Assembly (NCBI RefSeq): GCF_018326265.1
Contig: NZ_AP023360.1
Span: 412,501 to 476,500 of the forward strand
Direction of reading: 5' to 3'
Source: Catellatospora sp. IY07-71
GTDB taxonomy: Bacteria; Actinomycetota; Actinomycetes; Mycobacteriales; Micromonosporaceae
Length of the DNA: 64,000 nt
The position numbers and the translations under genes were made by a program. Of the stretch, positions 865 through 34,523 are shown piece by piece. Position 1 is the stretch's first letter, and each line of letters begins with the position of its first letter. The notes beneath the pieces were generated by a model. It worked only from the letters and a program-made list of their open reading frames with translations, ran no database searches and was not told the DNA's origin.

Positions 865-2064
865 GTGAGCGGGTTCGCGGAGTTGTGGGCGGAGATCGCG
901 CCGGTCGGGCGGGACGCGCAGACCGGCGGGTACCTGCGGTATGCGTACGCCCCGGCGGAGCAGGCCCTGCGGGCCTGGTTCCTGGACCAGGCCCGCGCGC
1001 GGGACCTCCTGGTCGAGGAGGACGGCAACGGCAACGTGTTCGCCTGGTGGGGTGACCCGTCGGCCGGGGACGCCGTGCTGACCGGCTCGCACCTGGACTC
1101 GGTGCCGCACGGCGGCGCGTACGACGGCCCGCTCGGCGTGGTCAGCGCCCTGCTGGCGGTGGACGCGCTGCGCGAGCGCGGGGTGCGGCCGGTCCGGCCG
1201 ATCGGCATCGCCGTGTTCGCGGAGGAGGAGGGCTCCCGGTTCGGGCTGGCCTGCCTGGGCTCGCGGCTGCTCGCGGGCGCGGTCGACCCGGCCGCCGCGG
1301 CGGCGCTGACCGACCGCGACGGCGTCACCCTGGACGAGGCCATGCGGGCGGCGCTGGGCCACGGCCCGCGCGGCGCCCGCCCGGACCTGCTCGCCCGGAT
1401 CGGCTGCTACGTCGAACTGCATGTGGAACAGGGCCGCGCGCTGCTCGACCTGGACCGCGCCGTGGGCGTGGCCAGCGCCATCTGGCCGCACGGCCGCTGG
1501 CGGCTGGACTTCACCGGCGAGGCCAACCACGCCGGCACCACGCTGATGGCCGACCGGCGCGACCCGATGCTGACCTTCGCGGCGACCGTGCTGGCCGCCA
1601 ACGAGCAGGCCAAACGGCTGGGCGCGCACGCCACCGTCGGCCGCGTGCAGGTCTACCCCAACGCCACCAACGCCATCCCCGGCAAGGTCAGCGCGTGGCT
1701 CGACGCCCGCGCCGACTCGACGGAGACGGTGGAGCAGGTCGTCGCCGCCGTACACCTGCACGCCCAGGCCCGGGCCGCCGAGGACGGCACCACGGTCACC
1801 CTGACCGCCGAGTCGGTCTCCCCGGAGACCGAGTTCCACGGCGGCCTCCGCGACCGCCTGTCCAAGCTCCTGGACGGCGCCCCCATCCTGCCCACCGGCG
1901 CGGGCCACGACGCGGGCGTCCTCAGCGCCTTCGTCCCGACGGCGATGCTCTTCGTCCGCAACCCCACCGGCGTCTCCCACTCCCCCGCCGAGCACGCCCC
2001 CGACGCCGACTGCGAGGCCGGCATCGCGGCCCTCGCCGCGGCCCTGGAGGAACTCGCGTGCTGA
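865..2064 (+). CDS. M20 family amidohydrolase (allantoate amidohydrolase-like) in the hut operon
   Basis: This is a metal-dependent amidase of the M20/AllC type (hydantoinase-carbamoylase family). Metal-binding and catalytic motifs are visible: GSHLDSVPHGGAYDG, then FAEEEGSRFG, then ELHVEQG, and near the C-terminus GAGHDAGVLS. The GTG at 865 is preferred because GAGGGGG lies 4 nt upstream and the protein then begins MSGFAELW; an upstream in-frame GTG at 847 lacks a ribosome binding site. The stop overlaps the hutF start, which implies translational coupling. HutF makes N-formimino-derived N-formyl-L-glutamate and no HutG deformylase is visible here. I infer that this enzyme may remove the formyl group to give glutamate, rather than act on allantoate. 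Confidence 0.85.
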   Translation: MSGFAELWAEIAPVGRDAQTGGYLRYAYAPAEQALRAWFLDQARARDLLVEEDGNGNVFAWWGDPSAGDAVLTGSHLDSVPHGGAYDGPLGVVSALLAVDALRERGVRPVRPIGIAVFAEEEGSRFGLACLGSRLLAGAVDPAAAAALTDRDGVTLDEAMRAALGHGPRGARPDLLARIGCYVELHVEQGRALLDLDRAVGVASAIWPHGRWRLDFTGEANHAGTTLMADRRDPMLTFAATVLAANEQAKRLGAHATVGRVQVYPNATNAIPGKVSAWLDARADSTETVEQVVAAVHLHAQARAAEDGTTVTLTAESVSPETEFHGGLRDRLSKLLDGAPILPTGAGHDAGVLSAFVPTAMLFVRNPTGVSHSPAEHAPDADCEAGIAALAAALEELAC

Positions 2065-3443
2065 TCCACTGCCAGTACGCCTGGCTCCCCGGCGGCATCG
2101 CTCCCGACGTGACCCTGGAACTCCGGGACAGCCGCGTGGTCCGCGTGTGCCACCCCCAAGATCGCGTCGATCTTGCGCGAAGTGTTAGGGATATGCCCGC
2201 TAAGGGCGTGTCGCACCCACAGTTCACGCAAGATCAACGCACTTCAGGGGCCGCGTCGGGGGCCGAGTATCGCGCCGGGGTGACGATGGCGGGGTTTGCC
2301 AACGCGCACTCTCACGCGTTTCACCGGGCTCTGCGGGGGCGGACCCATGGGGACCGGGGGAGCTTCTGGACCTGGCGGGAGCAGATGTACCGGGTCGCGG
2401 CGGCGCTGGATCCGGACTCGTACTACCGGCTGGCGCGCGGGGTCTACGGGGAGATGGTGCTGGCGGGGATCACGGCCGTGGGCGAGTTCCACTACCTGCA
2501 CCACGGGCCGGGAGGGGTGCCTTATGCGAATCCCAACGCGATGGGTGAGGCGCTCGTCGCCGCGGCGAAGGATGCGGGGCTGCGGATCACGTTGCTGGAC
2601 ACGCTGTATCTGACGGCGTCGGTGGACGGGAAGCCGCTGGAGGGGCCGCAGCTGCGGTTCGGGGACGGGGATGCGCTGCGCTGGGCGGAGCGGGTGGATC
2701 TGCTGGCCGAGCAGCCGCATCTGCTGACGGGCGCGGCGATCCACTCGGTGCGGGCGGTGCCGCCGGCGCAGATGTCGACGGTGGCGGCGTGGGCGGCGGG
2801 GCGGCCGCTGCACGCGCACGTGTCGGAGCAGCGCGCGGAGAACGAGGCCTGCCTCGCCGAGCACGGGCGTACGCCGACCGAGGTGCTGGCGGACTTCGGG
2901 GCGGTGCACGAGATGTTCACGGCGGTGCACGCCACGCACCTGACGCACAACGACATGGCGCTGCTGTCGGCGTCGTACGCCTGCTTCTGCCCGACGACCG
3001 AGCGGGACCTGGGCGACGGCATCGGCCCGGCGCGGGCCCTGGCCGACGCCGGGACGCGGCTGACCTTGGGCAGCGACAGCCACGCGGTCATAGACTTCTT
3101 CGAGGAGTCGCGAGCCCTGGAGCTGCACGAACGCCTCGCGACCGAGCAGCGCGGGCACTTCACCGCAGTCGAGTTGCGGGCCGCGGCGACGGCTGCCGGG
3201 CACGCGAGCCTCGGCTGGCACGACGCCGGCCGGATCGAGGTGGGCGCGCGCGCCGACCTGGTGACGGTGGCACTGGACAGCCCGCGCACCGCCGGGATCG
3301 ACCCCGAGGGCGTGCTGTTCGCGGCGAGCCCCGCCGACATCACCCACGTGCTGGCCGACGGGCGGGAGGTCGTCCGGGACGGGCGGCACACCGGCATCGA
3401 CGTGGCCCGCGAGCTGCAGGAGGCGATCACGTGTCTCTTCTGA
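2058..3443 (+). CDS. hutF: Formimidoylglutamate deiminase carrying an in-frame palindromic repeat
   Basis: HutF deaminates N-formimidoyl-L-glutamate to N-formyl-L-glutamate and ammonia. It is an amidohydrolase-fold protein. The zinc motif [14 protein letters not shown] is near residue 84, followed by [24 protein letters not shown] and [10 protein letters not shown]. The GTG at 2058 overlaps the M20 stop by 7 nt. Between the short N-terminal beta domain (ending RDSRVVRV) and the amidohydrolase domain lies repeat A1 (2156-2240). It is translated without a stop or frame change, adding about 30 residues including [10 protein letters not shown] and [10 protein letters not shown]. From memory of other actinobacterial HutF proteins, this insert is absent. 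It sits in the small outer domain, so activity may be kept. The stop overlaps hutI. Confidence 0.92.
2156..2240 (+). repeat. Repeat A1 (GATC-bounded 67-nt family), inside hutF
   Basis: The core is 2169-2235, exactly 67 nt, starting GATCTTGCGCGAA and ending TTCACGCAAGATC. The left flank CCAAGATCGCGTC is shared with copies A2 and A5, read on the opposite strand. The element is read through as protein in hutF. Confidence 0.9.
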
Positions 3444-4630
3444 TCACCGGCATCGGCGAGCTGACCACCAACGATCCCGAGCTGGGCATCCTGCGCGACG
3501 CCGCGCTGGTGGTGGACGGCGACCGGGTGGCGTGGGTCGGCCCGGCCGCGGGGGCGCCCGCCGCCGACGAGCGCCTGGACGTACGCGGCGCGGCCGTGCT
3601 GCCCGGCTTCGTCGACAGCCACAGCCACCTGGTGTTCGCCGGGGACCGGGCGCCGGAGTTCGCGGCGCGGATGGCCGGCGAGCCGTACACGGGCGGCGGC
3701 ATCCGCACCACGGTGGCCGCCACCCGCGCGGCGACCGACGACCAGCTGCGCGCCAACGTGGCCCGGCTGGTCGGCGAGGCGCTGCGGCAGGGCACCACGA
3801 CCATCGAGATCAAGAGTGGGTACGGCCTCAGCACGCTCGACGAGGCTCGCTCGGTGCGGATCGCCGCGGAGTTCAGCGACGAGGTCACCTTCCTCGGCGC
3901 GCACGTGAAACCGGCGGAGGACGCCGACGGCTACGTCGACGAGGTGACCGGCCCGATGCTGGACGCCTGCGCGAAGTACGCGGGCTGGGTGGACGTGTTC
4001 TGCGAGCGGGGCGCGTTCGACGTCGCCGAGTCGCGGCGGGTGCTCCAGGCGGGCATCGCGGCGGGCCTGCGTCCCCGCATCCACGCCAACCAGCTCACCA
4101 TGGGCGGCGGTGTGCAGCTCGCCGTCGAGCTGGACTGCGCCAGCGCCGACCACTGCACCCACCTGTCCCCCGCCGACGTGGACGCACTGGCGAACTCGAA
4201 CACGGTGGCCACGCTGCTGCCCGGCGCGGAGTTCTCCACCCGCGCGCCCTGGCCGGACGCGCGCCGCCTGCTCGCCGCCGGGGTGACCGTGGCGCTCGCG
4301 ACGGACTGCAACCCCGGCTCGTCGTACACCTCGTCCATGCCCTTCTGCATCGCCCTGGCGGTGCGGGACATGAAGCTCACCCCCACCGAGGCGGTCTGGT
4401 CGGCCACCAAGGGCGGCGCCCTCGCGCTGCGCCGGCTCGACCTCGGCCACCTCGCCCCGGGCGCGTCCGCGGACCTGATCGTCCTGGACGCCCCCTCCCA
4501 CCTGCACCTGGCCTACCGGCCCGGCGTGCCGTTGATCAACACCGTGGTAAGGAAGGGCACCCTCCAATCGCTTTCCGTCGAGGAAGGTGCCCTTCTTAAC
4601 CCCTCTCCGCACAAGGGAGTGCTGTCATGA
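3431..4630 (+). CDS. hutI: Imidazolonepropionase with a repeat-derived C-terminus
   Basis: HutI hydrolyses 4-imidazolone-5-propionate to N-formimidoyl-L-glutamate, between HutU and HutF. Amidohydrolase motifs are visible: [41 protein letters not shown] and [11 protein letters not shown]. The GTG at 3431 lies inside the last codons of hutF. The normal end of the family is reached at about [15 protein letters not shown]. The next codons come from repeat D1 and give [17 protein letters not shown], then a short tail that runs into the hutH start (ATGA overlap). So the repeat has replaced or extended the C-terminus, and it also joins hutI to hutH in translation. Confidence 0.95.
4548..4600 (+). 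repeat. Repeat D1, forming the 3' end of hutI
   Basis: The arms AAGGAAGGGCACC and GGTGCCCTTCTT face each other around CGCTTTCCGTCG. The same unit occurs in fdhD (D2), downstream of fdhD (D3) and after 54605 (D4). Here it is translated in the same frame as D2. Confidence 0.88.
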
Positions 4631-6207: not shown

Positions 6208-6291
6208 CGTCGATCTTGCGTGAACTGTGGGGATGACACGCCCTAATCGGGCATATCCCTAACACTTCGCGCAAGATCGACGCGATCTTGG
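6208..6291 (-). repeat. Repeat A2 (67-nt family), downstream of hutH
   Basis: The core is 6212-6278 (67 nt), bounded by GATC and lying in the opposite direction to A1. It sits between the convergent hutH and FAD monooxygenase genes, where it may also act as a transcription stop. Read in the A1 frame it has an in-frame TAG, so it is not fully open. Confidence 0.88.
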
Positions 6292-7565: not shown

Positions 7566-7632
7566 GATCTTGCGCGAACTGTTGCTGTTATGCCGGTTTT
7601 GCGCGTGTCGCACCCACAACCCGCGCAAGATC
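7566..7632 (+). repeat. Repeat A3 (67-nt family)
   Basis: Exactly 67 nt from GATC to GATC. The arms GATCTTGCGCGAACTGT and CCGCGCAAGATC are kept but the centre has diverged. It lies between the FAD monooxygenase start and the rdgB stop. Confidence 0.85.
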
Positions 7633-11431: not shown

Positions 11432-12496
<1,065 letters not shown>

Positions 12497-19680: not shown

Positions 19681-19719
19681 CAGCCGCCACCCCGTGCGGC
19701 CTGCCCGCCGGTCCGCGAT

Positions 19720-25536: not shown

Positions 25537-26498
25537 TGGGCGCGGCCAGCTCCCGGCGGCAGGTGACCCGCATCGACCTCGGCGGGTCCGCTCCGCTGCG
25601 CCGCCAGGACGCCCTCACCGCCGAGGAGCCCCTGGAGATCCGCGTCGGCCACCGCGGCGGCCCCCGCCCGCCGCTCGCCGTCACCATGCGCACCCCCGGC
25701 GACGAACTCGACCTCGCCCTCGGCTTCCTCCTCACCGAAGGCGTCATCACCCACCCCTCCGACGTCCTCACCGCCCAACTCTGCGCCCAGGAAAGGAAGG
25801 GCACCTTCTTAACGCTTTCCGTAGAGGAAGGGCACCTTCTTAACGCCTCGCAGGCCATGGGTGGCGGCCCCGGCAGCGCGCCCGAGCCGATCGGCGGCGG
25901 CCTTGTCGACGCGAGGCCGCCTGCCGGCACGTACAACGTGGTGGACGTGGTGCTCGCCGACCACGTCGCGCCACCGGACGCCGGGGTGGAGCGCAACTTC
26001 TACACCACGTCCTCGTGCGGCGTCTGTGGCAAGGCCAGCATCGATGCGATTCGCACCCGTTCGCGGTTCGACGTGGCCGCCGATCCGGTCACCGTCGACG
26101 CCCGGATCCTGGCGGGTCTGCCGGACCGGCTGCGGGCCGCCCAGCGCACGTTCGAGCGCACGGGAGGGCTGCACGCGGCCGGGCTGTTCACCGCGGCCGG
26201 GGAGCTGGTCGCGGTCCGCGAGGACGTGGGCCGGCACAACGCCGTCGACAAGCTGATCGGGATGCAGTTGCGAGCCGGGCGGCTGCCGCTCGCGGGGCAC
26301 GTGCTGCTCGTCTCCGGCCGGGCGAGTTTCGAGCTGACCCAGAAGGCCTGGATGGCCGGGATCAGCGTCATGGCCGCGGTCTCCGCGCCCAGCACGCTGG
26401 CCGTCGACCTGGCCGAGGAGTCCGGAATGACCCTGGTCGGCTTCCTGCGGGGGCAGACCATGAACGTGTACGCGGGACACCAGCGCATCCTGGCCTGA
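25536..26498 (+). CDS. fdhD: Formate dehydrogenase accessory sulfurtransferase FdhD with in-frame repeat
   Basis: FdhD moves sulfur from a cysteine desulfurase to the molybdenum cofactor of the partner dehydrogenase. The conserved Cys pair is in TTSSCGVCGKAS (near residue 160), and VREDVGRHNAVDK and VSGRASFELTQKA follow. Between GFLLTEGVI...LCA and YNVVDVVLA, normally joined by about ten residues, there are about 48 residues. Roughly 20 of these are encoded by repeat D2 (RKGTFLTLSVEEGHLLNA), and the rest is Gly/Pro-rich. The frame is intact and all later motifs are present, so the protein may still work with an extra surface loop. The start overlaps the upstream stop by one base. Confidence 0.95.
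25793..25850 (+). repeat. Repeat D2, inside fdhD
   Basis: The 22-nt unit beginning AGGAAGGGCACCTTC occurs twice in direct order (25794-25815 and 25825-25846), separated by TTTCCGTAG. Each unit contains the self-complementary GAAGGGCACCTTC. It is translated in frame. Confidence 0.92.
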
Positions 26499-26543
26499 GG
26501 CCGCCCCGCGCAGGTCCACTCCTCGACGCCAGCCGCACCTGAA

Positions 26544-26600
26544 GCGTTAAGAAGGTGCCCTTCCTCTACGGAAAACGATAAGAAGGTGCCCTTCCTTTCC
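26544..26600 (-). repeat. Repeat D3, 45 nt downstream of fdhD
   Basis: This is the reverse complement of D2, with the same two units (26544-26565 and about 26576-26600) and the same spacer type. It ends exactly at the stop codon of the Nudix gene. D2 and D3 thus stand inverted to each other, about 700 nt apart, around the 3' two-thirds of fdhD. Confidence 0.9.
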
Positions 26601-27418
26601 TACCAGTGGAGGGCGTGGGAGTGCTGGTAGTCGCCGTCGGCGGCGACGAGCCAGCTGTGCTGGGGGCCGTCGGCGACCAGGGCGGTGGTGCCGGTGAGGC
26701 GGCACAGGCGGGTGGCGAGTTCGAGTTCGCTGACGCCGGTCGCGCGGGCTAGGGAGTCACCAGCCGAGAGTTCGCAGCCGTACGAAGGGTCGCCGGCGTC
26801 GGGGTTGATCCACACGGTGGCGCTGACGTCGGCCGCGCTCATCAGCTCGTCGGCCGTGCCCACGAAGACGTCCGCGGGGTCGAGGCCGTACGCCTCGTGC
26901 AGGGCCTGCCGCAGCACCCCGGCCGGGGTCGCCGAGGCGAAGGAGACGCTGTACGCCGCCCGGCCGTCCTGGGCGGCCTGCCACACCTGGTCGATCGCCC
27001 GGCGCAGGTAACCGGCGACGCCCGCGGGCTGCAGGTTCAGCTCGTCGATCGTCTCGGCCGTGAACGGCACCCGCACCACGTCGTAGGTGCCCTTCGCCGG
27101 GTCGGCGAACTCGTGCCCGTACCGGCCGGCGAAGTCCATCGAGACCAGACGGCAGGCGAACAGGTGATGCCGCTGCCAGCCGTCCTCGCGGGGCGCGTCG
27201 ACGAAGGTGAGCGGCACGGGTGGGGTGACCACGGCCCGCAGCTCCTCGTCCAGCTCCCGGTAGAGCGCCGCCAGCAGGTTCGCGTCGCCGGGCTCCACCC
27301 CGCCGCCGGGCACCGACCAGTAGCGCGGCACGCCGGGCCGGGTCCGTTCGAACAGGAGCACGTCGTCGCCGTCGAGCAGCACGGCGCGGACGCGGTGACG
27401 GTGCGGGACGGCGACCAT
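26600..27418 (-). CDS. Nudix-like hydrolase fused to an unknown C-terminal domain
   Basis: Residues 1 to about 140 are a Nudix fold: RHRVRAVLLDGDDVLLFERT, RYWSVPGGGVEPGDANLLAALYRELDEEL. The REL-EE part of the Nudix box is kept, but the earlier Glu of the Gx5E pattern appears replaced (GVEPGDANLL), so hydrolase activity is uncertain. Residues about 150-272 form a second domain, with VSFASATPAGVLRQALHEAYG, TVWINPDAGDPSYG and HSWLVAADGDYQHSHALHW, which I do not recognise. The ATG at 27418 is used. Its stop touches repeat D3. Confidence 0.78.
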   Translation of the reverse strand: MVAVPHRHRVRAVLLDGDDVLLFERTRPGVPRYWSVPGGGVEPGDANLLAALYRELDEELRAVVTPPVPLTFVDAPREDGWQRHHLFACRLVSMDFAGRYGHEFADPAKGTYDVVRVPFTAETIDELNLQPAGVAGYLRRAIDQVWQAAQDGRAAYSVSFASATPAGVLRQALHEAYGLDPADVFVGTADELMSAADVSATVWINPDAGDPSYGCELSAGDSLARATGVSELELATRLCRLTGTTALVADGPQHSWLVAADGDYQHSHALHW

Positions 27419-30302: not shown

Positions 30303-30382
30303 GATCTTGCGTGAACTGTGGGGATGACACGCCCCTTCCGGGCGTATCCCTAACAGTTCACGCAAGATCGACGCGATCTTGG
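30303..30382 (-). repeat. Repeat A5 (67-nt family), downstream of lysS
   Basis: The core is 30303-30369 (67 nt), with the shared flank (on the minus strand CCCAAGATCGCGTC). It lies between the convergent lysS and phosphatase genes. Confidence 0.9.
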
Positions 30383-34450: not shown

Positions 34451-34523
34451 TGGAGCCGAGGGGACTCGAACCCCTGACCCCCACACTGCCAGTGTGGTGC
34501 GCTACCAGCTGCGCCACGGCCCC
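34451..34523 (-). tRNA. tRNA-Ala (anticodon GGC)
   Basis: On the minus strand the acceptor arms are GGGGCCG and CGGCTCC with discriminator A. The anticodon stem-loop is CCACA-CTGGCAG-TGTGG with anticodon GGC (34488-34490), reading GCC. The T arm GGGG-TTCGAGT-CCCC is normal. CCA is not encoded. Confidence 0.96.

Follow-up and report, generated by a model that had tools for sequence, protein, structure and literature searches.

A dispersed palindromic repeat probably inserted in frame in HutF of Catellatospora

A 28-residue segment near the N-terminus of the formimidoylglutamate deiminase HutF of Catellatospora sp. IY07-71 is very probably a dispersed palindromic repeat that was inserted in frame long ago and has been tolerated since. 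The gene lies in a window of 64,000 nucleotides, corresponding to positions 412,501–476,500 of an 8.6-Mb single-contig genome (labelled G000 here). We propose that the element is a non-autonomous, hairpin-forming palindromic repeat of the REPIN/RPE type, which would have entered once into the loop between two strands of the HutF β-domain, in an ancestor of seven Catellatospora species. Because the net length of the insert is divisible by three and the frame is open, hutF would have remained translatable. The 28 encoded residues would form a disordered and functionally neutral loop, retained since only the frame and the stop codons are policed, and the same filter may have admitted other copies, as well as other families of repeat, into the linkers of other proteins.

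A hairpin-forming element in hutF and across the genome

The hutF gene (positions 2058–3443, plus strand, 461 amino acids) was assigned from the list of open reading frames and from NCBIfam and Pfam matches; NF006681 (585 bits) and TIGR02022 (436 bits) both score over their cut-offs, and the PF01979 match begins at residue 77. The start codon is a GTG at 2058, overlapping the stop codon of the upstream gene (2062–2064), and the stop codon of hutF is at 3441–3443. The insert occupies positions 2157–2240 of the plus strand and is read as residues 34–61. Its 67-nt palindromic core, at 2169–2235 of the same strand, was recognized by a BLAST search of the genome, an exact pattern, a covariance model and its fold. 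The core has the sequence GATCTTGCGCGAAGTG...CACAGTTCACGCAAGATC, with the outer bases CAAGATCGCGTC on the left and AACGC on the right, and together with these outer bases the insert amounts to 28 residues in the frame of hutF, in agreement with a preliminary description of this DNA that had read a 67-nt element with its flank as about 30 residues of HutF.

The element is a dispersed, multi-copy, hairpin-forming palindrome, and its family is termed family A here. The BLAST search gave at least 41 matches at E ≤ 0.001 (40 of 118 candidates were scored), with a best non-self E-value of 1.8e-24. The exact-arm pattern permitted lengths of 60–78 nt, and all 54 copies that it detected are 67 nt long. 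The covariance model located at least 115 distinct places in the genome, five of them slightly off in length. Among the 110 copies of equal length the arms are near-invariant, and the loop carries a mean of 7.4 substitutions relative to the consensus over 32 columns; the length of the element is therefore held more tightly than the sequence of its loop. Beyond a span from roughly −2 to +91 relative to the 87-nt model, conservation is down to background. Compared with shuffled sequences, the fold has a z-score of −7.7 for the given strand and −6.3 for the other (0 of 200 shuffles in each case). No gathering-level Rfam match was found near the element, and assignment to a known RNA family was rejected, the only two matches being to miRNAs at chance level (E of 0.4 and 0.55).

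Further copies of family A are present in the window. Two were found with the exact pattern on the minus strand, at 6212–6278 (G000:418712–418778) and 30303–30369 (G000:442803–442869), each with convergent genes on both sides. On the plus strand, a copy at 12430–12496 (G000:424930–424996) was found with the exact pattern, and a diverged copy at 7566–7632 (G000:420056–420142 including flanks) with the covariance model. The window also holds other palindromes. An element of family C, 56 nt long, lies at 743–798 of the plus strand (G000:413243–413298). Palindromes of family D (GATCGCTGTCTCGTGTC...), 71 nt each, begin at 19713, 19828, 34313, 36062, 50772, 56262, 56377 and 56491, one of them roughly 70 nt away from a tRNA gene (34451–34523), and a further repeat of the GGAAGGGCACCTTCTTAACG type is found at 4546–4617, 25790–25861 and 26541–26601. 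Family D has 219 exact cores in the genome; of the approximately 100 cores listed, two depart from a length of 41 nt, and at least six pairs of cores are exactly 105 nt apart. Near-invariant length despite strongly differing loops was observed in families A (67 nt), C (56 nt) and D (core of 41 nt), and in a family B of other Catellatospora genomes (63 nt).

The gene context of the copies was assigned with a home-made codon scorer, which classed the 115 family A copies as convergent (55), tandem (30), divergent (7), open through (14) or in the same frame with stops (9). Three of the 14 flagged as open through passed a stricter test and reading, and the rest were judged from the table to be tandem genes or noise; the scorer overlooked hutF, owing to a neighbouring gene no more than 300 nt away. 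Overall, 4 of the 115 copies are inside genes. The earlier view that copies other than that in hutF are intergenic holds for most of them, but three more are part of genes and in frame there, and about 14 of 115 apparently contain a neighbour's stop codon, as read from the context table. Examples of copies that seem to hold a neighbour's stop are those at 2866118, 4554025, 8118830, 2107219 and 7890865 of G000. If the stops are placed correctly, the repeat writes the C-terminus of the neighbouring protein.

One view of how the families are kept is as hairpins at 3′ ends between genes, serving as terminators or RNase barriers, with the in-gene copies as by-products; this view addresses why the families persist and is no rival to the explanation of the HutF insert. 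The convergent context seen in family A recurs, with the same scorer, in 19 of 40 copies of family C (one of them, in MptB, wrongly scored), 18 of 30 sampled loci of family D and 18 of 30 loci of family B (not all distinct). Fixed length with a varying loop likewise recurs, at 56 nt in 40 of 40 exact copies of family C and at 63 nt in 14 of 14 matches of family B, some of which are not distinct. However, the consulted part of a survey reports the same location bias for REPs in general (PMC3733652). Moreover, a run of five Ts within 20 nt past the right arm was found in 2 of 115 family A copies; at the left arm, none of the 115 has a run of five As at up to 20 nt. Given the scarcity of T runs, most family A copies are not classical intrinsic terminators. 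We consider upkeep as 3′-end hairpins possible but on balance unlikely.

The insert in related genomes and its age

Eleven genomes of Catellatospora, the genus of the nearest named relatives in a HutF search, were compared: the present one, C. methionotrophica (G001), C. bangladeshensis (G002), C. sichuanensis (G004), C. tritici (G005), C. coxensis (G006), C. vulcania (G007), strain KI3 (G009), C. paridis (G010), and the genomes G003 and G008. Family A lies in frame at the same site of HutF in seven species (G000, G002, G003, G004, G006, G007 and G010). It is missing at the orthologous site of C. methionotrophica and G008, and no family A element was found in 19 aligned HutF sequences from outside Catellatospora (the alignment holds 28 of the 32 sequences first listed). 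The gap at the element in these homologues and the dispersal of the same family through the genome bear out the earlier proposal of an inserted sequence. Matches to the family A model, in which both strands may be counted, number at least 150 in G000, 145 in G002, 131 in G006, 103 in G004, 97 in G003, 81 in G007 and 77 in G010. The genomes lacking family A in HutF have 5 (G001), 1 (G008) and 0 (G005 and G009). The rich genomes are exactly the seven with family A in HutF, so that presence in HutF tracks the richness of the family.

In C. tritici and strain KI3, the same HutF linker holds an unrelated 63-nt palindrome, that of family B, within about five codons of the family A site by eye. Family B has 79 matches in C. 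tritici, 80 in strain KI3 and 73 in G008 (both strands, 40 candidates scored in each); elsewhere, 7 were found in C. methionotrophica and none in G000 or C. bangladeshensis. Among 30 loci, family B was recognized in frame only at HutF, which the scorer left unflagged. That two relatives hold a repeat of another family in this loop suggests that repeated DNA enters proteins there repeatedly, apparently leaving them functional. Separately, in Nocardioides psychrotolerans and N. szechwanensis the corresponding HutF linker contains a pair of neighbouring hairpins, both in frame (L091, 1596–1650; L132, from 1596). In the N-terminal part of HutF at locus L047 (G034, another genus), a different loop of the protein holds an inverted repeat, CATTGTCCGGG...CCCGGCAATG, which is imperfect and in frame (by eye).

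In a tree of the hut locus, G005, G009 and G008 group together (support of 100) against the rest (99), and C. methionotrophica falls outside the seven A-bearing species with a weak support of 45. One gain of family A and one of family B suffice to explain the distribution in HutF. The outer arms differ between species in a paired way, with CGTC...AACG in G000 and G002 and CGAC...GTCG in G003, G004 and G007, a difference for which two insertions, or conversion by other copies, could likewise account. Family A might thus have entered the linker twice, once in the ancestor of G000 and G002 and once in that of the remaining five species, and the linker would then be a genuine hot spot; the independent arrival of family B in the same linker and the weakly supported branching among the A-bearing species and C. 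methionotrophica point in that direction. However, the left edge CAAGATC and the frame are common to both groups, most members have loops that are alike (GGGATATGCCCG), and the double change is obtainable by two substitutions or by conversion, so that we regard a double entry as quite improbable.

The preliminary description had envisaged a recent insertion. This is ruled out by the seven species that share the site and by the comparison with C. bangladeshensis, in which all 17 family A copies of G000 with both flanks matched within 376 kb are kept in place, with 57–67 of 67 positions alike. These copies predate the split of G000 and C. bangladeshensis and have not moved since. No movement was observed, and the origin of the family A copies by transposition is inferred. 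An apparent missing stretch at G000:2152088 (−86 in length) proved to be adjoining sequence with one family C arm, the family A copy there being identical in both genomes. No target-site duplication, one of the marks of a MITE, was recognizable by eye at the HutF insert, because the linker has diverged.

Within a sample of Micromonosporaceae, 13 of 121 genomes match the family A model at E ≤ 1e-4 (stricter filters). The strong matches are in Catellatospora; seven genomes of other genera have weak ones, with best E-values of 6e-7 to 7e-5 and up to 27 matches each, which may represent distant relatives of family A. Among these other genera, G067, G092, G093, G110 and G136 have 5 to 27 weak matches per genome, with best E-values of 6e-7 to 1.5e-6.

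The encoded residues and inserts in other proteins

Across the seven A-bearing species, the insert forms a CAA...CGC/CGT block of 84 nt that is stop-free in every one. The absence of a stop codon, to which the preliminary description had drawn attention, is correct but unremarkable, since 74 of the 115 family A copies are open in three or four of the six frames. The pN/pS ratio of the insert is 0.99 (pS of 0.126 and pN of 0.124; uncorrected, sum of 21 species pairs), and that of the HutF core is 0.13 (pS of 0.262 and pN of 0.035; uncorrected). Variable columns of the insert number 5, 11 and 9 at codon positions 1, 2 and 3, with no third-position bias, and its GC3 is 0.52 versus 0.93. Judged from these comparisons, the insert is free of amino-acid constraint. 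Its pS, about half that of the core, may reflect constraint at the DNA level or conversion.

The HutF model predicted with AlphaFold2 (28 sequences, mean pLDDT of 88.1) has three strands within residues 2–31, with a pLDDT of 94–96 over residues 1–30. These are followed by a helix at residues 33–43, by residues 44–66 with a pLDDT below 50, and by the next strand at residue 70. With ordered strands on either side of the low-pLDDT stretch, the insert loop would link two strands, and the N-terminus is part of the modelled fold; the insert itself is predicted to be disordered. The retention of the 84-nt block at unchanged length in all seven species of the clade could be taken as a sign of domestication, in which the 28 residues serve HutF as a linker, in an interaction or in regulation and are selected as protein. 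Against this stand the pN/pS contrast with the core, the predicted disorder and the unrelated peptide with which two other species fill this linker, and domestication is very improbable.

The N-terminal 33 residues of HutF are under weak constraint in the A-bearing clade (pN/pS of 0.83, or 0.66 without G000). A translation start past the element, for which GTG/TTG and ATG codons are available and which would make the element an untranslated leader between genes, could account for this fast evolution, but is hardly credible given the AWLP-type first strand in most outgroup HutF sequences, the well-modelled residues 1–30, the frame that stays open through the insert in all seven species, the same Met in C. 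methionotrophica without any insert, and the interior inserts of CitE-like, PxpC-like, AlkA-like and MptB proteins, which it leaves unexplained. On the preferred reading of a tolerated insertion, HutF with the insert is presumably made and active.

The genome contains at least seven in-frame inserts, of families A and C, in six genes, and HutF is therefore one case of a wider phenomenon. The three other in-frame copies of family A are in a PxpC-like protein (G000:1308659), a DUF5682/VWA_CoxE protein (3904750) and MptB (8208177). In-frame copies of family C occur in MptB, shortly past that of family A, and in two further proteins, one AlkA/Ada-like and the other a CitE-like lyase; in the cases read, the family C peptide is in the same frame, SFGE...SPKL. 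Comparison with solved homologues of the CitE, AlkA and PxpC types gives gaps around the insert places. The scorer had flagged 6 of 40 family C copies as open through, of which L348 and L364 were accepted and L343 and L360 were dropped on reading; L352 and L363 were dropped from the table, with a stop within 34–64 nt on one side, and the MptB copy was added by reading. No in-frame copy of family D was found in 30 sampled loci, the first 30 along the chromosome.

The occupancy of these linkers varies among species. The AlkA-like insert is present in C. bangladeshensis as well. The PxpC-like protein has family A in G000 and G002, and the linkers of the other species are short or different where a motif search located them. 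In the DUF5682/VWA protein, the linker has family A in G000 and G002 and family C in G005, G008 and G009, with neither visible in the other six genomes. MptB has family A in G000, G002, G003, G004, G006, G007 and G010, and additionally family C in G000 and G002; neither was found in MptB of G001 and G008, and no A or C peptide was recognizable in the MptB linkers of G005 and G009.

Known repeats and the meaning of the inserts

Mycobacterial interspersed repetitive units are short actinobacterial repeats that touch the start and stop codons of their neighbours; they are not known to be palindromic, and lie between the genes of operons rather than, as far as is known, inside protein linkers. Family A resembles them as a short actinobacterial repeat at the ends of neighbouring genes, and differs in being palindromic and in occurring inside protein linkers.

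The best-known repeats that enter proteins in frame are those of Rickettsia and Wolbachia, a setting in which importance was attached to small genomes and drift; Rickettsia genomes are AT-rich. The host here is a GC-rich, free-living soil actinobacterium, and the likeness to the Rickettsia palindromic elements (RPEs), suggested in the preliminary description, is good in behaviour and is drawn from behaviour rather than sequence. The relevant parts of two reviews record in-frame RPE, ERIC and Neisseria elements, and describe RPEs as approximately 105–150 bp long with close to half of them inside genes (PMC2229807, PMC10969869). As in Rickettsia and Wolbachia, according to the same parts, dispersed hairpin repeats lie both between genes and in frame in conserved genes, and the extra residues are tolerated (PMC2229807, PMC10969869). 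The present elements differ from RPEs as there described in their length of 56–67 nt and in the small share of family A copies inside genes (4 of 115); the core of 67 nt, and the conserved block of approximately 90 nt with flanks, fall short of 105–150 bp.

The best match to the element is the anatomy of REPINs. The portion of the source drawn on here gives REPINs and BIMEs inverted conserved ends, a less conserved spacer, a preferred spacing, many extragenic copies and a predicted hairpin, as in the present families, and, unlike these, makes no mention of in-frame coding copies for REPINs (PMC3116915). Family A has two inverted conserved ends, a variable loop, fixed spacing (67 nt in 54 of 54) and a hairpin fold. 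Each arm of family C resembles a separate hairpin (GCAGTTTC-GGG-GAAACTGC; by eye), and in family A an arm hairpin, CAAGATC-GCGTC-GATCTTG, is seen at the left end only (by eye). A RAYT-like HUH transposase is a candidate for the mover of the element, a guess to which we give somewhat less than an even chance.

For GTAG/CGTC REPs, the consulted part of the survey describes a convergent or 3′-end location, REP-supplied stop codons, intragenic dimers that encode 20–30 amino acids, and different REPs at about the same recB site in two Xanthomonas species (PMC3733652). The convergent 3′ location, the copies internal to open reading frames, the element-supplied stops and the different repeats at the same protein site are features that the Catellatospora families share with these REPs as described there. 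Actinobacteria are absent from the phyla that the survey lists in the part consulted and go unnamed in its main text; the tags are given as a terminal CGTC on a stem of 8–9 bp and GTAG on a stem of 6–13 bp (PMC3733652). Measured against that description, no terminal GTAG/CGTC tag on such a stem was recognized by eye in family A or C; CGTC is common just outside the family A core, yet variable (CGAC, CGTT) and detached from the described stem (by eye).

In searches of the open-licence literature, no published case of in-frame palindromic repeats in Actinobacteria was found, and nothing relevant was found on Catellatospora palindromes, Micromonosporaceae repeats, RAYT in Actinobacteria or mycobacterial repeats. 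The preliminary description had likewise known of no actinobacterial case; it is the singularity of HutF that falls away, given the other inserts of this genome. In-frame palindromic repeats as a kind are known already, from Rickettsia, Wolbachia and other phyla. As far as these searches show, their occurrence in an actinobacterial genus, the several families of exact length and the repeated use of the same linkers are new.

In this 8.6-Mb actinobacterial genome, six genes together hold seven or more inserts from two families; there are relatives without them, and unrelated families occupy the same linker. Such a set offers a natural series on how selfish DNA adds loops to enzymes. Because HutF is assayable, tolerance would be measurable directly in natural orthologues with family A, with family B or with neither at that position. 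A bolder reading, which we hold to be improbable, is that the linkers are docking sites to which unrelated families of exact length are delivered in frame (A or B in HutF, A then C in MptB, A or C in the DUF5682/VWA protein), perhaps by a shared enzyme that recognizes context. If it is true, repeat insertion would time and again supply the proteins of Catellatospora, and maybe those of Nocardioides, with new loops.
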